From: Sedimentibacter hydroxybenzoicus DSM 7310
GTDB taxonomy: Bacteria > Bacillota > Clostridia > Tissierellales > Sedimentibacteraceae
Direction of reading: 5' to 3'
Length of the DNA stretch: 64,000 bases
Assembly (NCBI RefSeq): GCF_013403245.1
Contig: NZ_JACBNQ010000001.1
Span: 372,001 to 436,000 of the forward strand
The notes under the pieces: model-generated
Told to the model about the DNA's origin: nothing
The model's database searches: none
What the model saw: only the letters and a program-made list of their open reading frames with translations
In this document: positions 5,503 to 63,082 of the stretch, piece by piece
Layout of the letters: each line of letters opens with the position of its first letter
Numbering within the stretch: position 1 is the stretch's first letter
Program-made: the position numbers and the translations under genes

Positions 5503-5571
5503 CTTGAAAAAGTTCATCCTGCAAGGCGCCGGAAGCCGGGCAACGATGCAGGGGGACTTTTTATTTTTGCT
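5503..5571 (-). repeat. MITE-like repeat, copy B, internally deleted
   Basis: Reverse-oriented copy of the 122-bp family with its middle missing. The junction lies at a short GGCAAC sequence that is present on both sides of the missing segment in full copies, which points to a slippage or recombination deletion between 6-bp direct repeats. Confidence 0.75.
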
Positions 5572-11692: not shown

Positions 11693-12973
11693 TTATGCAA
11701 CAATTCCTCTGTTGCTGTCAAAGTTTTCATATTCTTTATTATCCATGATTTTCATTATTCTTTCAACCATTTCATATACATCCTCAAAAGAAGTATATAA
11801 AGCAATAGGTGCTAATCTGATGATGTTAGGAAATCTGAAATCCGGGACTATTTTATTTTCCTTCATTGCCTTTGTGATTCTTATTGCATCATCATGCTCT
11901 AAAGCAACGTGTCCTCCTCTTCTTTCGTCAATCGTAGGATTGGAGTAGCTGAATCCGTATTTTTTTAATTTTGTATCTATTAAATACATCAAATAAGCCG
12001 TCAGCGTTAAGGATTTCTTTCTTACATTGTTTATTCCGGCCTCTTCAAACAATTTTAAGCTTCCCTCTATGGGAGCCATGCTGAGAATAGATTGAGTTCC
12101 TGTCTGCCATCCTCCTGCATATCTGGCATGTTCAAATTCCTGATTTAAATCAAACTGAGTTTCCTTGTTATTACCCTGCCATCCTGCAAGTCCGGGTTCC
12201 ATATCAAAATGCTTTTTATTTATATATAAGCCGGCAATTGATCCCGGTCCGCCGTTCAAATATTTATAAGTGCACCAAACAGCGAAGTCACAGTCAATAT
12301 CCTTGAAATCGTGAGGCACGCTTCCTATTGAATGACATAAGTCAAAGCCGATATAAATACCCTTTTCGTGAGCAGCCTTTGTCAGTTTTTTCATATCAGG
12401 CAATTGAGAGCTTCTGTACAATGCTGAAGGTAACAGTACTAGGCATACGTCATCTGTCATAGCTTCTATTACATCATCCTCATATATGAAATTACCGTCT
12501 CTGCTTTTAACTACCTTCAGGCATTCATCCGGATTGTAACCGTGAAGCTTAATCTGGCTGTATACGGCATATTTATCTGTCGGAAAATTTATATCATCCA
12601 TGATTATTTTATTTCTGCTTGCTGTCGGATGATAAAAGGTTGCAATTGCCTGGTGTATGTTTATTGTCGTACTTGCGCATAGGGTAACTTCTTCCGCATC
12701 CGCATTAATCAAAGGCGCCATCATTGAACCAAGCTTATCCTGGTATAAAAAGTAATTTGCATTTTCATCGGTCCAGATGTCAATACCGTAAGTTTTCCAA
12801 TCTTCCAATGCTTTATAAACATACTTTTCAGCATCCTTTGAACATAATCCTAAAGAATTACCATCCATATAGAGTACATCTTTTCGGATATAAAATCTTT
12901 CCTTAAAATTTTTGAGTTCATCATTGAAATCCATTTGTCTGGCAAAATCTAAGCCATCATTAAAATTGTACAT
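11693..12973 (-). CDS. kynU: Kynureninase
   Basis: 426 residues, typical length. This PLP enzyme cleaves kynurenine to anthranilate and alanine. Visible family features are YMDGNSLGL near the N-terminus, the active-site region CTYKYLNGGPGS carrying the PLP lysine, and AGWQGNNKETQFDL. The ribosome site is AAGGGTGG. It is transcribed divergently from a MerR-XRE-cupin regulator 138 bases away, the most likely controller. No other kynurenine-pathway gene is in the window; the oxygen-dependent first step would not fit an anaerobe, so the substrate is probably imported. Confidence 0.92.
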   Translation of the reverse strand: MYNFNDGLDFARQMDFNDELKNFKERFYIRKDVLYMDGNSLGLCSKDAEKYVYKALEDWKTYGIDIWTDENANYFLYQDKLGSMMAPLINADAEEVTLCASTTINIHQAIATFYHPTASRNKIIMDDINFPTDKYAVYSQIKLHGYNPDECLKVVKSRDGNFIYEDDVIEAMTDDVCLVLLPSALYRSSQLPDMKKLTKAAHEKGIYIGFDLCHSIGSVPHDFKDIDCDFAVWCTYKYLNGGPGSIAGLYINKKHFDMEPGLAGWQGNNKETQFDLNQEFEHARYAGGWQTGTQSILSMAPIEGSLKLFEEAGINNVRKKSLTLTAYLMYLIDTKLKKYGFSYSNPTIDERRGGHVALEHDDAIRITKAMKENKIVPDFRFPNIIRLAPIALYTSFEDVYEMVERIMKIMDNKEYENFDSNRGIVA

Positions 12974-13111: not shown

Positions 13112-13939
13112 ATGAACGATTTAACTAATGGCAGTAACGAAGAAATTGTTTTTAATATAAGTGATGTGGCAAAAATAGTAGGGGTTGTTCCTGCTACGGT
13201 CAGAAATTGGGAAAAAGCAGGATTGATTCAGCCAAAAAGAAAGGGCAACAATTACAGGGTGTATAATTTCAATGATATTGAGATACTGAAAAAAATAAAA
13301 GAATATGCCGATGAGAAAAATATGAGCTTATCATTAATTAAGCAGTTGTTGTCAAAGGATGTTTCATACAGTAAAGAAAAATCAGTATACGACAAGGAAT
13401 TTTACCATGCTAAATTAAAAAAATACAGAGAAGATGAAGGCTATACCTTAGAAGAGGTAAGCGGTGCGGTTGGTATTTCTCCATCGTATTTAAGCCGTAT
13501 AGAGAACGGAAAAACAGGTGTAACATATGAAATACTTGACAAGTTGGCAGCCTTTTACGGTGAGAGCACACTTAGGTTTTTTGATGTAAAAAACAACGAA
13601 GAAAGTGAAGTAATCAGAAAGGGTAAAGGAAAAATATTGTTAACAGGACTGCAGGGTGTTACAATAGAGTCATTAATTAATTCGGATAACGGCTCTATTG
13701 AATCGGTGAAATTTATTGTAAAACCGCATTGTGGTGACTTTAAATCTCACAACCATCACAGCGGTGAAGAATTTATACATGTATTAAAAGGAAAGCTTAC
13801 AGTAACATTGGATAATACGACGGAATTTATAATAGAAGAAGGTGACAGCATTCATTTTAAATCAAACAGAATGCACAAATGGCACAATCCGTCTGATGAT
13901 GTTGTTGAAATACTATGGGTACATTCGTACATAGGATGA
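13112..13939 (+). CDS. MerR-HTH / XRE-HTH / cupin three-domain regulator
   Basis: 275 residues. Residues ~12-80 are a MerR-type winged helix (ISDVAKIVGVVPATVRNWEK, AGLIQPKRKGNNYRVY). Residues ~90-150 are a Cro/XRE helix-turn-helix (YTLEEVSGAVGISPSYLSRI, ENGKTG). The C-terminal ~80 residues are a cupin beta-barrel with metal/ligand-type residues (HNHHSGEEFIHVLKGKL, later MHKWHN). XRE-cupin regulators are common; carrying a MerR domain in front is unusual. Divergence from kynureninase suggests it senses kynurenine, anthranilate or a related compound. The last codons (ATA GGA TGA) fall inside a repeat element, so the natural C-terminus may have been altered. Confidence 0.88.
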   Translation: MNDLTNGSNEEIVFNISDVAKIVGVVPATVRNWEKAGLIQPKRKGNNYRVYNFNDIEILKKIKEYADEKNMSLSLIKQLLSKDVSYSKEKSVYDKEFYHAKLKKYREDEGYTLEEVSGAVGISPSYLSRIENGKTGVTYEILDKLAAFYGESTLRFFDVKNNEESEVIRKGKGKILLTGLQGVTIESLINSDNGSIESVKFIVKPHCGDFKSHNHHSGEEFIHVLKGKLTVTLDNTTEFIIEEGDSIHFKSNRMHKWHNPSDDVVEILWVHSYIG

Positions 13940-14051
13940 TGAAAAAGCCCCCGCGTCGTTGCCGTTCATCCGGTCAATCCTCACGTATGTCTAATACGCT
14001 GCGGTTGCCCGGCTTCCGGCGCCTTGCAGGATGAACTTTTTCAAAAGCCTG
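13932..14051 (+). repeat. MITE-like repeat, copy C
   Basis: A copy of the 122-bp family with a degenerate left end (TAGGATGATGAAAAAG against CAGGCTGCTGAAAAAG). It overlaps the last two codons and the stop of the regulator gene and ends at AAAAGCCTG, 26 bases before the nitroreductase start. Confidence 0.8.
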
Positions 14052-14077
14052 TTAAAAATCTATAGGAGGAAATAAAT

Positions 14078-14607: not shown

Positions 14608-15798
14608 ATGAAAGTATTAATACTTAATTGCGGCAGTTCATCAATTAAATTTCAGATAGCTGATATGCCTGAATATGATGTTTTAGTAAGTGGAAGCGTT
14701 GAAAGAATAGGATATAATGATGCCGAATTCAAATACACAGTTAAAGAAAACAAACAAACCTTGGTTACTCCTGTTCTAAACCATGAGCAGGGTATTAATT
14801 TAATTCTTGAAACTATTTTTAATGATAAAGTTGCTGGGATAGGAACCGACGATATTAATGCCATAGGGCACAGGGTTGTTCAAGGCGGAGATAAACAAAA
14901 CATATCAGTAATGGTTGATGATAATGTAATTAATTATATAGAAAGTATAAAGGATTTAGCACCTTTACATAATCCAAATCATTTAGCGGGAATTTATGCC
15001 TGTAAAAAGCTTCTTACCGGTGTGCCTCAGGTGGTTGCTTTTGATAATGGGTTTCATATGACTTTACCTCAATCAGCATATACCTATGGAATTCCTTATG
15101 AATATTATGAAAAATATCGTATAAGAAGATATGGCTTTCACGGTATAGCTTTCAGAAGCATGGCAGAAGAAGCTGAAAAAATATTGAATGCTTCATACAA
15201 AAATTATAAAATTGTTAACATGATGCTTGGAAGCGGTACAACGGCGAATGCTTTGAAATACGGAGAATCGGTAGAAGTATCAACAGGATTTACCCCACAC
15301 GAAGGATTGATACAGTCAACAAGGGCAGGAGACATTGACGCTGCCGCAATACTTTATTTAATGAAAAAAGAGAACTTAACAATAGAACAGGCAGATGAAA
15401 TAATTAATAAGAAAAGCGGGTGGAAAGGACTTTCCGGTATCAGCAATGATATGAGAGAAATTTATAATGCGGCTGAGAATGGAAACGATAGGGCAAGGCT
15501 TACTATAGATGCAGTTTGTCACAGGTTTAAAAAATATATCGGTGCATACAGTGCAATAATGGAAGGCATTGATGTTCTGATATTTTCGGGAGGAGTAGGG
15601 CAGAATGCAAGCTATATAAGAGAAAAAGTCTGCAGTGGATTAAATTATATGGGAATTGAAATTGATGCTGATAAAAACTCTGAATTAAAAGGAGCGGGAA
15701 CTATCAGCTCTGATAATTCAAGAGTAAAAATAGCAGTTGTCGAAGCAAACGAAGAAAAAATAATTGCAGCCGATACATATAATTTGTGCAAGGAGTGA
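14608..15798 (+). CDS. Acetate-kinase family protein with divergent active site
   Basis: 396 residues, normal for AckA, with the acetokinase start (LILNCGSSSIKFQ), LAPLHNP, an Asp (D146) in the FDNGFH segment, RRYGFHG, and the Arg of STRAGDID. The motif usually written HLGNG reads MLGSG, so the active-site His (H180 of the archaeal enzyme) is Met206. TGFTPHEG replaces the usual GFTPLEG. It may be a kinase for another acid, or impaired. Its stop lies five bases before the MEMO-AMMECR1 start, so translation is probably coupled. No pta lies beside it; a phosphate butyryltransferase is 27 kb away. Confidence 0.85.
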   Translation: MKVLILNCGSSSIKFQIADMPEYDVLVSGSVERIGYNDAEFKYTVKENKQTLVTPVLNHEQGINLILETIFNDKVAGIGTDDINAIGHRVVQGGDKQNISVMVDDNVINYIESIKDLAPLHNPNHLAGIYACKKLLTGVPQVVAFDNGFHMTLPQSAYTYGIPYEYYEKYRIRRYGFHGIAFRSMAEEAEKILNASYKNYKIVNMMLGSGTTANALKYGESVEVSTGFTPHEGLIQSTRAGDIDAAAILYLMKKENLTIEQADEIINKKSGWKGLSGISNDMREIYNAAENGNDRARLTIDAVCHRFKKYIGAYSAIMEGIDVLIFSGGVGQNASYIREKVCSGLNYMGIEIDADKNSELKGAGTISSDNSRVKIAVVEANEEKIIAADTYNLCKE

Positions 15799-15803
15799 TT
15801 TTA

Positions 15804-17189
15804 TTGTCTATAAAAAATACTTTTATAGTTCCTCACCCACCATTGATTGTTCCGAAGGTCGGAAGAGGACAGGAAATAAAAATCGAAGAAACAGTAAAAG
15901 CTTATGATAAGATAGCCAAGAAAATAGCTGAATTAAGACCTGATACGATTGTTGTGGCTACTCCGCATTCAATCATGTACTCCGACTACATACATATATC
16001 ACCGGGAAAGGGAGCAAAGGGTGATTTCGGAGAATTTGGCGAACCGGATGTTAAATATGAGGTAGATTATGATACGGAATTTGTGCATAAGCTATCGGAG
16101 CTGGCTGAACGGCAGGATATACCTGCGGGAACGTTGGGTGAAAGAAAAAAATCATTAGATCATGGCACTATGGTACCTTTATATTTCATCAACAAGCATT
16201 ATACCGGCTATAAATTAGTACGTATAGGTATTTCAGGGCTGTCACCCATAGAACATTACGATTTTGGCAGATGCATTGCAGATGCGGCAGAGGAACTTAA
16301 CAGGAATGTTGTTTTTATTGCAAGCGGTGATTTGTCTCACATGCTTAAAGATGAAGGACCCTACGGATATTCGGATGAGGGACCTGCATTTGATAAAGAA
16401 GTTACCGAAGCCATGAGCAATGGTGATTTTATGCGTTTTCTAACATTCGACGAAGAATTTTGCGAAGCCGCAGCCGAATGCGGACTACGTTCCTTCATAA
16501 TGATGGCAGGAGCCCTGGATGGTAAGGCTGTTAACTCTCAGCTTTTGTCATACGAAGGCCCTTACGGTGTGGGCTATGCAGTCGCATCCTTTGAGGTTAC
16601 TGGAAATGATGAAAACAGGTGCTTCGGTAAGCTATACAGTATGGAAGAGGAAAAATGGTTAAGACTGCTGAGGGAAAATGAAGATGAATACGTTCGTCTG
16701 GCAAGAAGCACACTTGAAAGCTTTGTGCTTTATAAGGATAAAATTAAACGACCGGATGATTTGCCGGCAGAAATGCTTGACAACAAAGCAGGTGTGTTCG
16801 TCTCACTGAAGATGGACGGACAGCTCAGAGGATGCATAGGAACTGTTTCTTCCACAACTGAATGCATAGCGGATGAAATCATACAAAATGCCATAAGTGC
16901 AGGCTTGGAGGACCCTCGATTCAATCCGGTGACAGTAAAAGAGCTGAAAAAAATACAATATTCGGTAGATGTTTTAAAGGATGCAGAACCAATCGAATCC
17001 ATAGTCCGGCTCGATACAAAAAAATACGGTGTAATAGTAAGAAAGGGAAGAAGAAGCGGTCTGCTCTTACCAAATCTTGAAGGTGTGGATACTCCCGAAG
17101 AGCAGGTAGGCATCGCTTTAAAAAAGGCAGGAATCAAACCAGATGAAGATTATACCATGGAGAGGTTTGAAGTTGTAAGGCATAATTGA
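15804..17189 (+). CDS. MEMO1 (LigB-like) - AMMECR1 fusion protein
   Basis: 461 residues from the TTG at 15804, chosen because AAGGAGTG lies just upstream. Residues ~1-270 resemble class III extradiol dioxygenases/MEMO1 (VPHPPLIVP, TPHSIMYSDYIHI, ASGDLSHML). Residues ~285-461 are AMMECR1, with the hallmark LRGCIG and LEDPRFNPV. These are proteins B and A of the AmmeMemoRadiSam system, here in one chain. The third component, a radical SAM protein, is not adjacent; the one at 27372 belongs to another family. The biochemical function of the bacterial system is not established. Confidence 0.9.
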   Translation: MSIKNTFIVPHPPLIVPKVGRGQEIKIEETVKAYDKIAKKIAELRPDTIVVATPHSIMYSDYIHISPGKGAKGDFGEFGEPDVKYEVDYDTEFVHKLSELAERQDIPAGTLGERKKSLDHGTMVPLYFINKHYTGYKLVRIGISGLSPIEHYDFGRCIADAAEELNRNVVFIASGDLSHMLKDEGPYGYSDEGPAFDKEVTEAMSNGDFMRFLTFDEEFCEAAAECGLRSFIMMAGALDGKAVNSQLLSYEGPYGVGYAVASFEVTGNDENRCFGKLYSMEEEKWLRLLRENEDEYVRLARSTLESFVLYKDKIKRPDDLPAEMLDNKAGVFVSLKMDGQLRGCIGTVSSTTECIADEIIQNAISAGLEDPRFNPVTVKELKKIQYSVDVLKDAEPIESIVRLDTKKYGVIVRKGRRSGLLLPNLEGVDTPEEQVGIALKKAGIKPDEDYTMERFEVVRHN

Positions 17190-21265: not shown

Positions 21266-21332
21266 ATTAGACATACGTGAGGATTGACCGGATGAACGGC
21301 AACGATGCAGGGGAGTCTTTTTCAGCAGCCTG
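21266..21332 (-). repeat. MITE-like repeat, copy D, truncated
   Basis: Reverse-oriented; only the original left half of the 122-bp element remains, ending TTTTTCAGCAGCCTG. The other half is missing at the 21266 junction. Confidence 0.78.
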
Positions 21333-40470: not shown

Positions 40471-40663
40471 CTGAGAGCACTTAGGTGCTCTCAGGCTGCT
40501 GAAAAAGTCCCCCTGCGTCGTTGCCGTTCAGTCGGTCAATCCTCACGTATGTCTAATACGCTGCGGTTGCCCGTCTTCCGGCGCCTTGCAGGATGAACTT
40601 TTTCAACAGCCTACCATCTTGATGACTTTGTCATCAATCTGAGAGCACTTAGGTGCTCTTTTT
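40471..40663 (+). repeat. Duplicated terminator hairpins flanking repeat copy E
   Basis: The 21-base sequence CTGAGAGCACTTAGGTGCTCT occurs at 40471-40491 and again at 40639-40659. Both copies fold (GAGAGCAC/GTGCTCT), but only the right one is followed by a T run and can terminate. A further hairpin (TGATGACTTTGTCATCA) lies between repeat and right copy. Confidence 0.8.
40492..40612 (+). repeat. MITE-like repeat, copy E
   Basis: Full-length copy of the 122-bp family (CAGGCTGCTGAAAAAGTCC to AACTTTTTCAACAGCCT), lying inside the duplicated terminator. Confidence 0.85.
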
Positions 40664-62960: not shown

Positions 62961-63082
62961 CAGGCTGCTGAAAAAGTCCCCCTGCTTCGTTGCCGCTGCG
63001 CCGGTCAATCCTCACGTATGTCTGAATACGCTGCGGTTGCCCGTCTTCCGGCGCCTTGCAGGATGAACTTTTTGAACAGCCT
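62961..63082 (+). repeat. MITE-like repeat, copy F
   Basis: Full-length copy (CAGGCTGCTGAAAAAGTCC to TTTTTGAACAGCCT). Followed by the hairpin TCAGATTGATGAC/GTCATAAATCTGA, also seen after copy E. Confidence 0.85.

Follow-up and report, generated by a model that had tools for sequence, protein, structure and literature searches.

The AmmeMemoRadiSam locus in the 64-kb stretch of DNA that we analysed (hereafter the window) raises the question of where the radical SAM partner of its fused A and B proteins is encoded, and whether the two genes just upstream of the fusion, for a nitroreductase and an acetokinase, bear on what the system does. The first-pass annotation had described a MEMO-AMMECR1 fusion without its radical SAM partner, and had suggested that the neighbouring genes may hint at the substrate or the redox chemistry.

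The fusion ORF is uninterrupted in the window, running from a TTG codon at 15804 to a stop codon that ends at 17189 (Table 1). An ORF list sets the start mechanically at an in-frame GTG (15786); most homologs aligned with the fusion start at the position of the TTG. Both NCBIfam and Pfam bear out the claim that AmmeMemoRadiSam components A and B form a single chain here: the fusion matches AmmeMemoSam_A (TIGR04335) with 124.2 bits (cut-off 99), AmmeMemoSam_B (TIGR04336) with 36.8 bits (cut-off 26) and the LigB family PF02900 with 175.6 bits (gathering score 26.3), and it passes the Memo family PF01875 marginally, with 27.8 against a gathering score of 27. A genome-wide search found it to be the sole AMMECR1 match and the sole LigB match in its own genome. 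The fusion is real, but "MEMO" is a loose name for an N-terminal domain that is of LigB type by Pfam and, as described below, by fold.

Table 1. Coordinates of features in the window
Feature	Position	Strand	Remarks
LigB/MEMO-AMMECR1 fusion gene, 461 aa	15804..17189	+	TTG start; joins AmmeMemoRadiSam proteins B and A
AAGGAG, RBS-like, for the fusion	15790..15795	+	by eye; eight bases ahead of the TTG, within the last bases of the acetokinase gene
N-terminal LigB-type (PCAD-Memo superfamily) domain, residues 6-260	15819..16583	+	PF02900, 175.6 bits
C-terminal AMMECR1 domain, residues 297-458	16692..17177	+	PF01871, 150.9 bits
Acetokinase-family gene	14608..15798	+	divergent paralog, second full-length one in the genome; unconserved neighbour of the fusion
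Nitroreductase-family gene, 171 aa	14078..14593	+	unconserved neighbour of the fusion
GC-rich element, copies	13933-14053, 976-1098, 40493-40612, 62962-63082
GC-rich element, parts	21266-21331, 5504-5544

Several other features of the window were recorded. The GC-rich interspersed element listed in Table 1 is about 115 bases long, with 51% GC against 35% for the window, and has 38 matches in the genome, some of them partial; its ends can pair, and it folds weakly better than shuffled sequences (z -1.6). The copy at 13933-14053 lies directly before the nitroreductase gene. Upstream of the nitroreductase, 13112-13939 encodes a single-chain regulator that combines MerR, HTH_3 and cupin domains, and 11693-12973 encodes a kynureninase (371.4 against an NCBIfam cut-off of 246.4), in a clostridium. 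Promoter-like sites showed no excess (19, against 18.9 in shuffled sequences).

The first-pass annotation had proposed locating the radical SAM gene in the genome (3.81 Mb in 71 contigs, 98.9% complete and 3.2% contaminated), and a genome search found it at G000:C13:50179-51024, where AmmeMemoSam_rS (TIGR04337) is matched with 270.8 bits (cut-off 220); three further matches in the genome score 23-25 bits, below the cut-off. The encoded protein bears a CxxxCxxC stretch (by eye), which we take to be the radical SAM motif, and its gene has neighbours different from those of the fusion, with flavodoxin-like and acetyltransferase-like genes upstream (by eye). The window lies on contig C1, and C1 and C13 are separate, unjoined contigs. 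A profile search gave no TIGR04337 match on C1, and tblastn gave no significant radical SAM relative or remnant in the window (best E 0.14). The absence of the partner is therefore true of the locus but not of the genome, in which all three AmmeMemoRadiSam models (TIGR04335, TIGR04336 and TIGR04337) are above cut-off.

Relatives suggest how this arrangement may have arisen. In a family set of 27 genomes, including that of the window (G000), 24 have a fusion match, which is partial in G013 and G017, and a partner over cut-off is present in 20. In 18 of the 24 the partner gene directly follows the fusion, overlapping it by 4 bases in 17, and in two (G000 and G010) it lies elsewhere. No partner over cut-off was found in the other four (G002, G005, G013 and G017), three of which are incomplete genomes (G005 62%, G013 74%, G017 84%). 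In G002, the partner gene behind a full-length fusion is reduced to a short 5' remnant (L045:6152-6250), with no other copy over cut-off. In a partner tree of 30 chosen sequences, which includes just 9 of the named loci introduced below and has modest branch support, the copy from our genome falls within its genus, amid operonic copies; long branches meet at G001 and at the second copy of G011. The fusion likewise falls inside the genus in a fusion tree of 22 rows. Nesting of both proteins within the genus is as expected for relocation. The partner is sister to that of G010 (SH-aLRT 83, modest support), whose fusion sits in another branch and whose genome is 7% contaminated; given these conflicting placements, the partner may have been transferred within the genus. 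Separately, G011 has, besides a normal fusion-partner pair, a second, divergent radical SAM partner by a short B-like ORF of 150 aa (L059:4020-5371).

Outside the family, we examined the best 80 of at least 582 relatives of the fusion, by their titles mostly from Bacillota. Of these named loci, 67 have the partner gene downstream of the fusion (on the opposite strand in one, on the same strand in the other 66) and four have it upstream; it was not seen in nine, four of which end within 850 bases. To count genomes across the class, we used a sample of 195 Clostridia genomes with a completeness of at least 95%, searched with the fusion at E 1e-15 and with the partner at E 1e-40. An A/B match is present in 79 of these genomes, the partner in 72 and both in 72, such that the partner never occurs alone (Fisher p 8e-46, with relatedness uncorrected and genomes, not independent events, as the units counted). 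The fusion is full-length in 73 of the 79 genomes with an A/B match, and A and B in one chain is thus the usual state in Clostridia. Among the 67 genomes with both a full-length fusion and the partner, the two genes are adjacent (less than 350 bases apart) in 57, within 3 kb in two and elsewhere in eight, including our own. These counts leave aside G144, whose fusion match is split in two although a single 462-aa frame holds both pieces, and whose partner gene is 37 bases away; its inclusion gives 74, 68 and 58 in place of 73, 67 and 57. In two of the genomes with the partner elsewhere, G100 and G170, the genome is a single contig on which over 1 Mb separates the genes, even if it is taken as circular; in G176 and G193 the separation may reflect contig breaks. 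Since seven other genomes of the 67 have the partner elsewhere, adjacency is not a strict criterion for an AmmeMemoRadiSam system, and the genome of the window conforms to the system with its partner encoded away from the fusion.

A few genomes have the fusion and no partner. Six of the 73 with a full-length fusion lack the partner at E 1e-40 (G117, G142, G185, G192, G209 and G214), and in laxer partner searches of these six no score exceeded 46 bits in five, and G209 had no hit. The dependence is therefore one-sided. The seven fusion copies of these genomes all retain H11, H55, H120, H179, E225, C226, R342, C344, D370 and R372; the second G117 copy has lost Y408, and three copies have Lys in place of R454. 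A seventh partner-free genome, G058, has a match in the AMMECR1 part only, with D370, R372 and D389 changed.

Conserved residues and predicted fold both bear on what the fusion might do. An AlphaFold2 model built with 25 sequences has a mean pLDDT of 91.2 and a pTM of 0.83. In this predicted model, the closest match given for the N-terminal domain is TK2203 (5HEE; Z 32.2), followed by aminophenol and dihydroxyphenylacetate dioxygenases with Z 27.6-28.8, against 19.7 for MEMO1. The domain is thus predicted to be nearer in structure to class III extradiol dioxygenases than to MEMO1, and "LigB-type" would therefore be its more exact name. It appears to share the fold of 2-aminophenol 1,6-dioxygenase (3VSH; Z 28.4, rmsd 3.1 over 265 residues) at only 22% identity, and has the conserved histidines H11 and H55 (fusion numbering) in common with LigB-type dioxygenases; unlike those enzymes, it has an AMMECR1 domain attached and, in every full-length protein checked, a Cys beside the acidic residue. 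Human MEMO1 (PDB 7KQ8) shares the superfamily fold (Z 19.7 in the model, with an rmsd of 3.1 over 229 residues) but is farther from the fusion than the dioxygenases are, in keeping with a PF01875 score barely above its cut-off. The C-terminal domain is predicted to fold like PH0010 (1VAJ; Z 20.5, 36% identity) and MM0484 (1ZQ7; Z 19.1, 33% identity) which, unlike the fusion, are chains of 203 and 204 residues without a LigB domain. Residues H11, H55, H120, H179 and C226 are invariant in all 25 aligned sequences, as are R342, C344, G346, R372 and D389 of the AMMECR1 domain. C226 is also kept in nine of nine further full-length proteins, and the column of E225 holds 24 Glu and one Asp in the alignment, with Gln in G100 and G170. 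An excerpt of one study gives H49, H81 and C244 as the iron ligands of MEMO1, and H12, H61 and E242 as their LigB counterparts (PMC11081632). HMMER alignments of the fusion disagree at the third position, pairing E225 with a Glu of dihydroxyphenylacetate dioxygenase and C226 with an Asp of TK2203; hence the third metal ligand beside H11 and H55 may be either E225 or C226.

The acetokinase at 14608-15798 was also compared with its own relatives. The other full-length acetokinase of the genome, on contig C16, scores 538.9 bits, against 418.1 for the gene by the fusion. In the latter, HLGNG reads MLGSG and GTSH reads GIAF, changes that are common to three orthologs from the genus and set it apart from the C16 paralog; we take both stretches to be parts of the active site. 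Judging from its sequence, an acetate-forming role for this protein is doubtful.

We considered three alternative explanations for the locus. The fusion does lie just behind the nitroreductase and acetokinase genes, as had been annotated, and the order nitroreductase, acetokinase, fusion on one strand, the genes separated by 14 and 5 bases that contain no terminator-like site, could be taken for a functional operon acting on a common substrate, such as an acyl phosphate together with a reducible aromatic compound. We regard this as extremely improbable. Recurrence in related genomes had been set beforehand as the touchstone for a meaningful neighbourhood, and we surveyed 94 other fusion loci (14 from the family set and the 80 named loci that are the best of at least 582), 75 of which have at least 1.5 kb on both sides. 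A phmmer search with the window protein found no acetokinase near the fusion in any of the 94, and only one weak nitroreductase match (E 1.3e-5), about 3.5 kb away; the radical SAM gene, by contrast, is near the fusion in 71. Other neighbours that recur, named by eye, include a DUF368-like membrane protein in 12 of the 94 loci and a transporter in nine, besides smaller sets; at the family loci these neighbours resemble shared synteny within the genus. In seven other genomes of the genus, acetokinase orthologs with 72-80% identity, one of them partial, sit in other settings, with neither a fusion nor a nitroreductase in the stretches fetched, two of which span only 3.3-3.5 kb. The two upstream genes therefore look like local accidents, and the idea that they hint at a substrate or redox chemistry finds no support in these loci.

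The second alternative is that the N-terminal domain is a true, O2-using class III extradiol dioxygenase, for which its PF02900 score, its fold matches and the alignment of E225 with a dioxygenase Glu could all be cited. Nonetheless, E225 is replaced by Gln in G100 and G170, whereas C226 is kept throughout, and the part of PMC13386939 that we consulted has AMMECR1 at the head of an anaerobe indicator list, with values of 3.38 and 50.66 that are apparently percentages of aerobes and anaerobes. Because AMMECR1 marks anaerobes, O2-independent metal chemistry is the likelier activity of this dioxygenase-fold domain, and we consider ring cleavage with O2 very unlikely. A better candidate, though still an unlikely one, is that the fusion acts alone, with the radical SAM protein an optional helper and its loss from the operon a step to independence. 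The six partner-free genomes, whose fusions retain the metal-site residues together with R342, C344, D370 and R372, are consistent with such independence, as is the full-length fusion beside a partner remnant in G002. Against it, our own genome retains the partner, as do 67 of the 73 Clostridia genomes with a full-length fusion, 57 of them in adjacent position, and a strongly diverged or substituted partner may have escaped detection in the remainder.

We consider it very probable that the gene encodes an ordinary AmmeMemoRadiSam B-A fusion, from a Sedimentibacter-type clostridium, whose partner is encoded in trans and whose nitroreductase and acetokinase neighbours are accidental, and that fusion and partner serve one pathway. 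The fusion, the separate location of its partner and the co-occurrence of the two are direct observations; from these we infer the common pathway. The usual two-gene unit consists of the fusion and the radical SAM gene; in the lineage of our genome the latter is now found at a separate locus. The short, PflA-like radical SAM protein might act on a small molecule by a radical step; further steps on the same compound could fall to the metal site of the LigB-type domain and to the AMMECR1 domain, with its invariant Arg-x-Cys, and the two domains may be joined in one chain to hand on an intermediate. From the dioxygenase-fold domain we would sooner expect O2-independent metal chemistry than O2-dependent cleavage of a ring.

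The results screened in our literature searches, a part of those returned, held no experimental function for the bacterial AmmeMemoRadiSam system. Burroughs et al. are said to have discussed, in 2019, links to nucleotide-base and isoprenoid modification. Passages of later papers mention "recently-described Memo-Ammecr1 systems" with a related radical SAM domain, crediting Burroughs et al., 2019 (PMC7159879), credit the dioxygenase-Memo superfamily to Burroughs et al., 2019, JBC (PMC7694686), and place archaeal AMMECR1 among uncharacterized proteins that deserve experiments (PMC6393860).

The acetokinase and nitroreductase are a false lead to the substrate, and can be removed from the question of the AmmeMemoRadiSam reaction; among the loci examined, with the named ones being the best 80 of at least 582, the radical SAM gene alone recurs widely beside the fusion. 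Several clostridia and G002, which we take to be Sedimentibacter acidaminivorans, have an apparently intact fusion but no partner, or only a remnant of it, such that the fusion may outlive its partner. A bolder suggestion, which we offer tentatively and think improbable, is that the fusion is a complete, O2-independent metalloenzyme of anaerobes able to do so, with a metal site that, by pairing an acidic residue with an invariant Cys at the position of the third ligand, would be intermediate between the dioxygenases and MEMO1. The interest of these results lies in the general AmmeMemoRadiSam question and in the few partner-free genomes, rather than in the locus at 15804-17189 itself; those genomes offer a natural means of testing whether the fusion can act alone.
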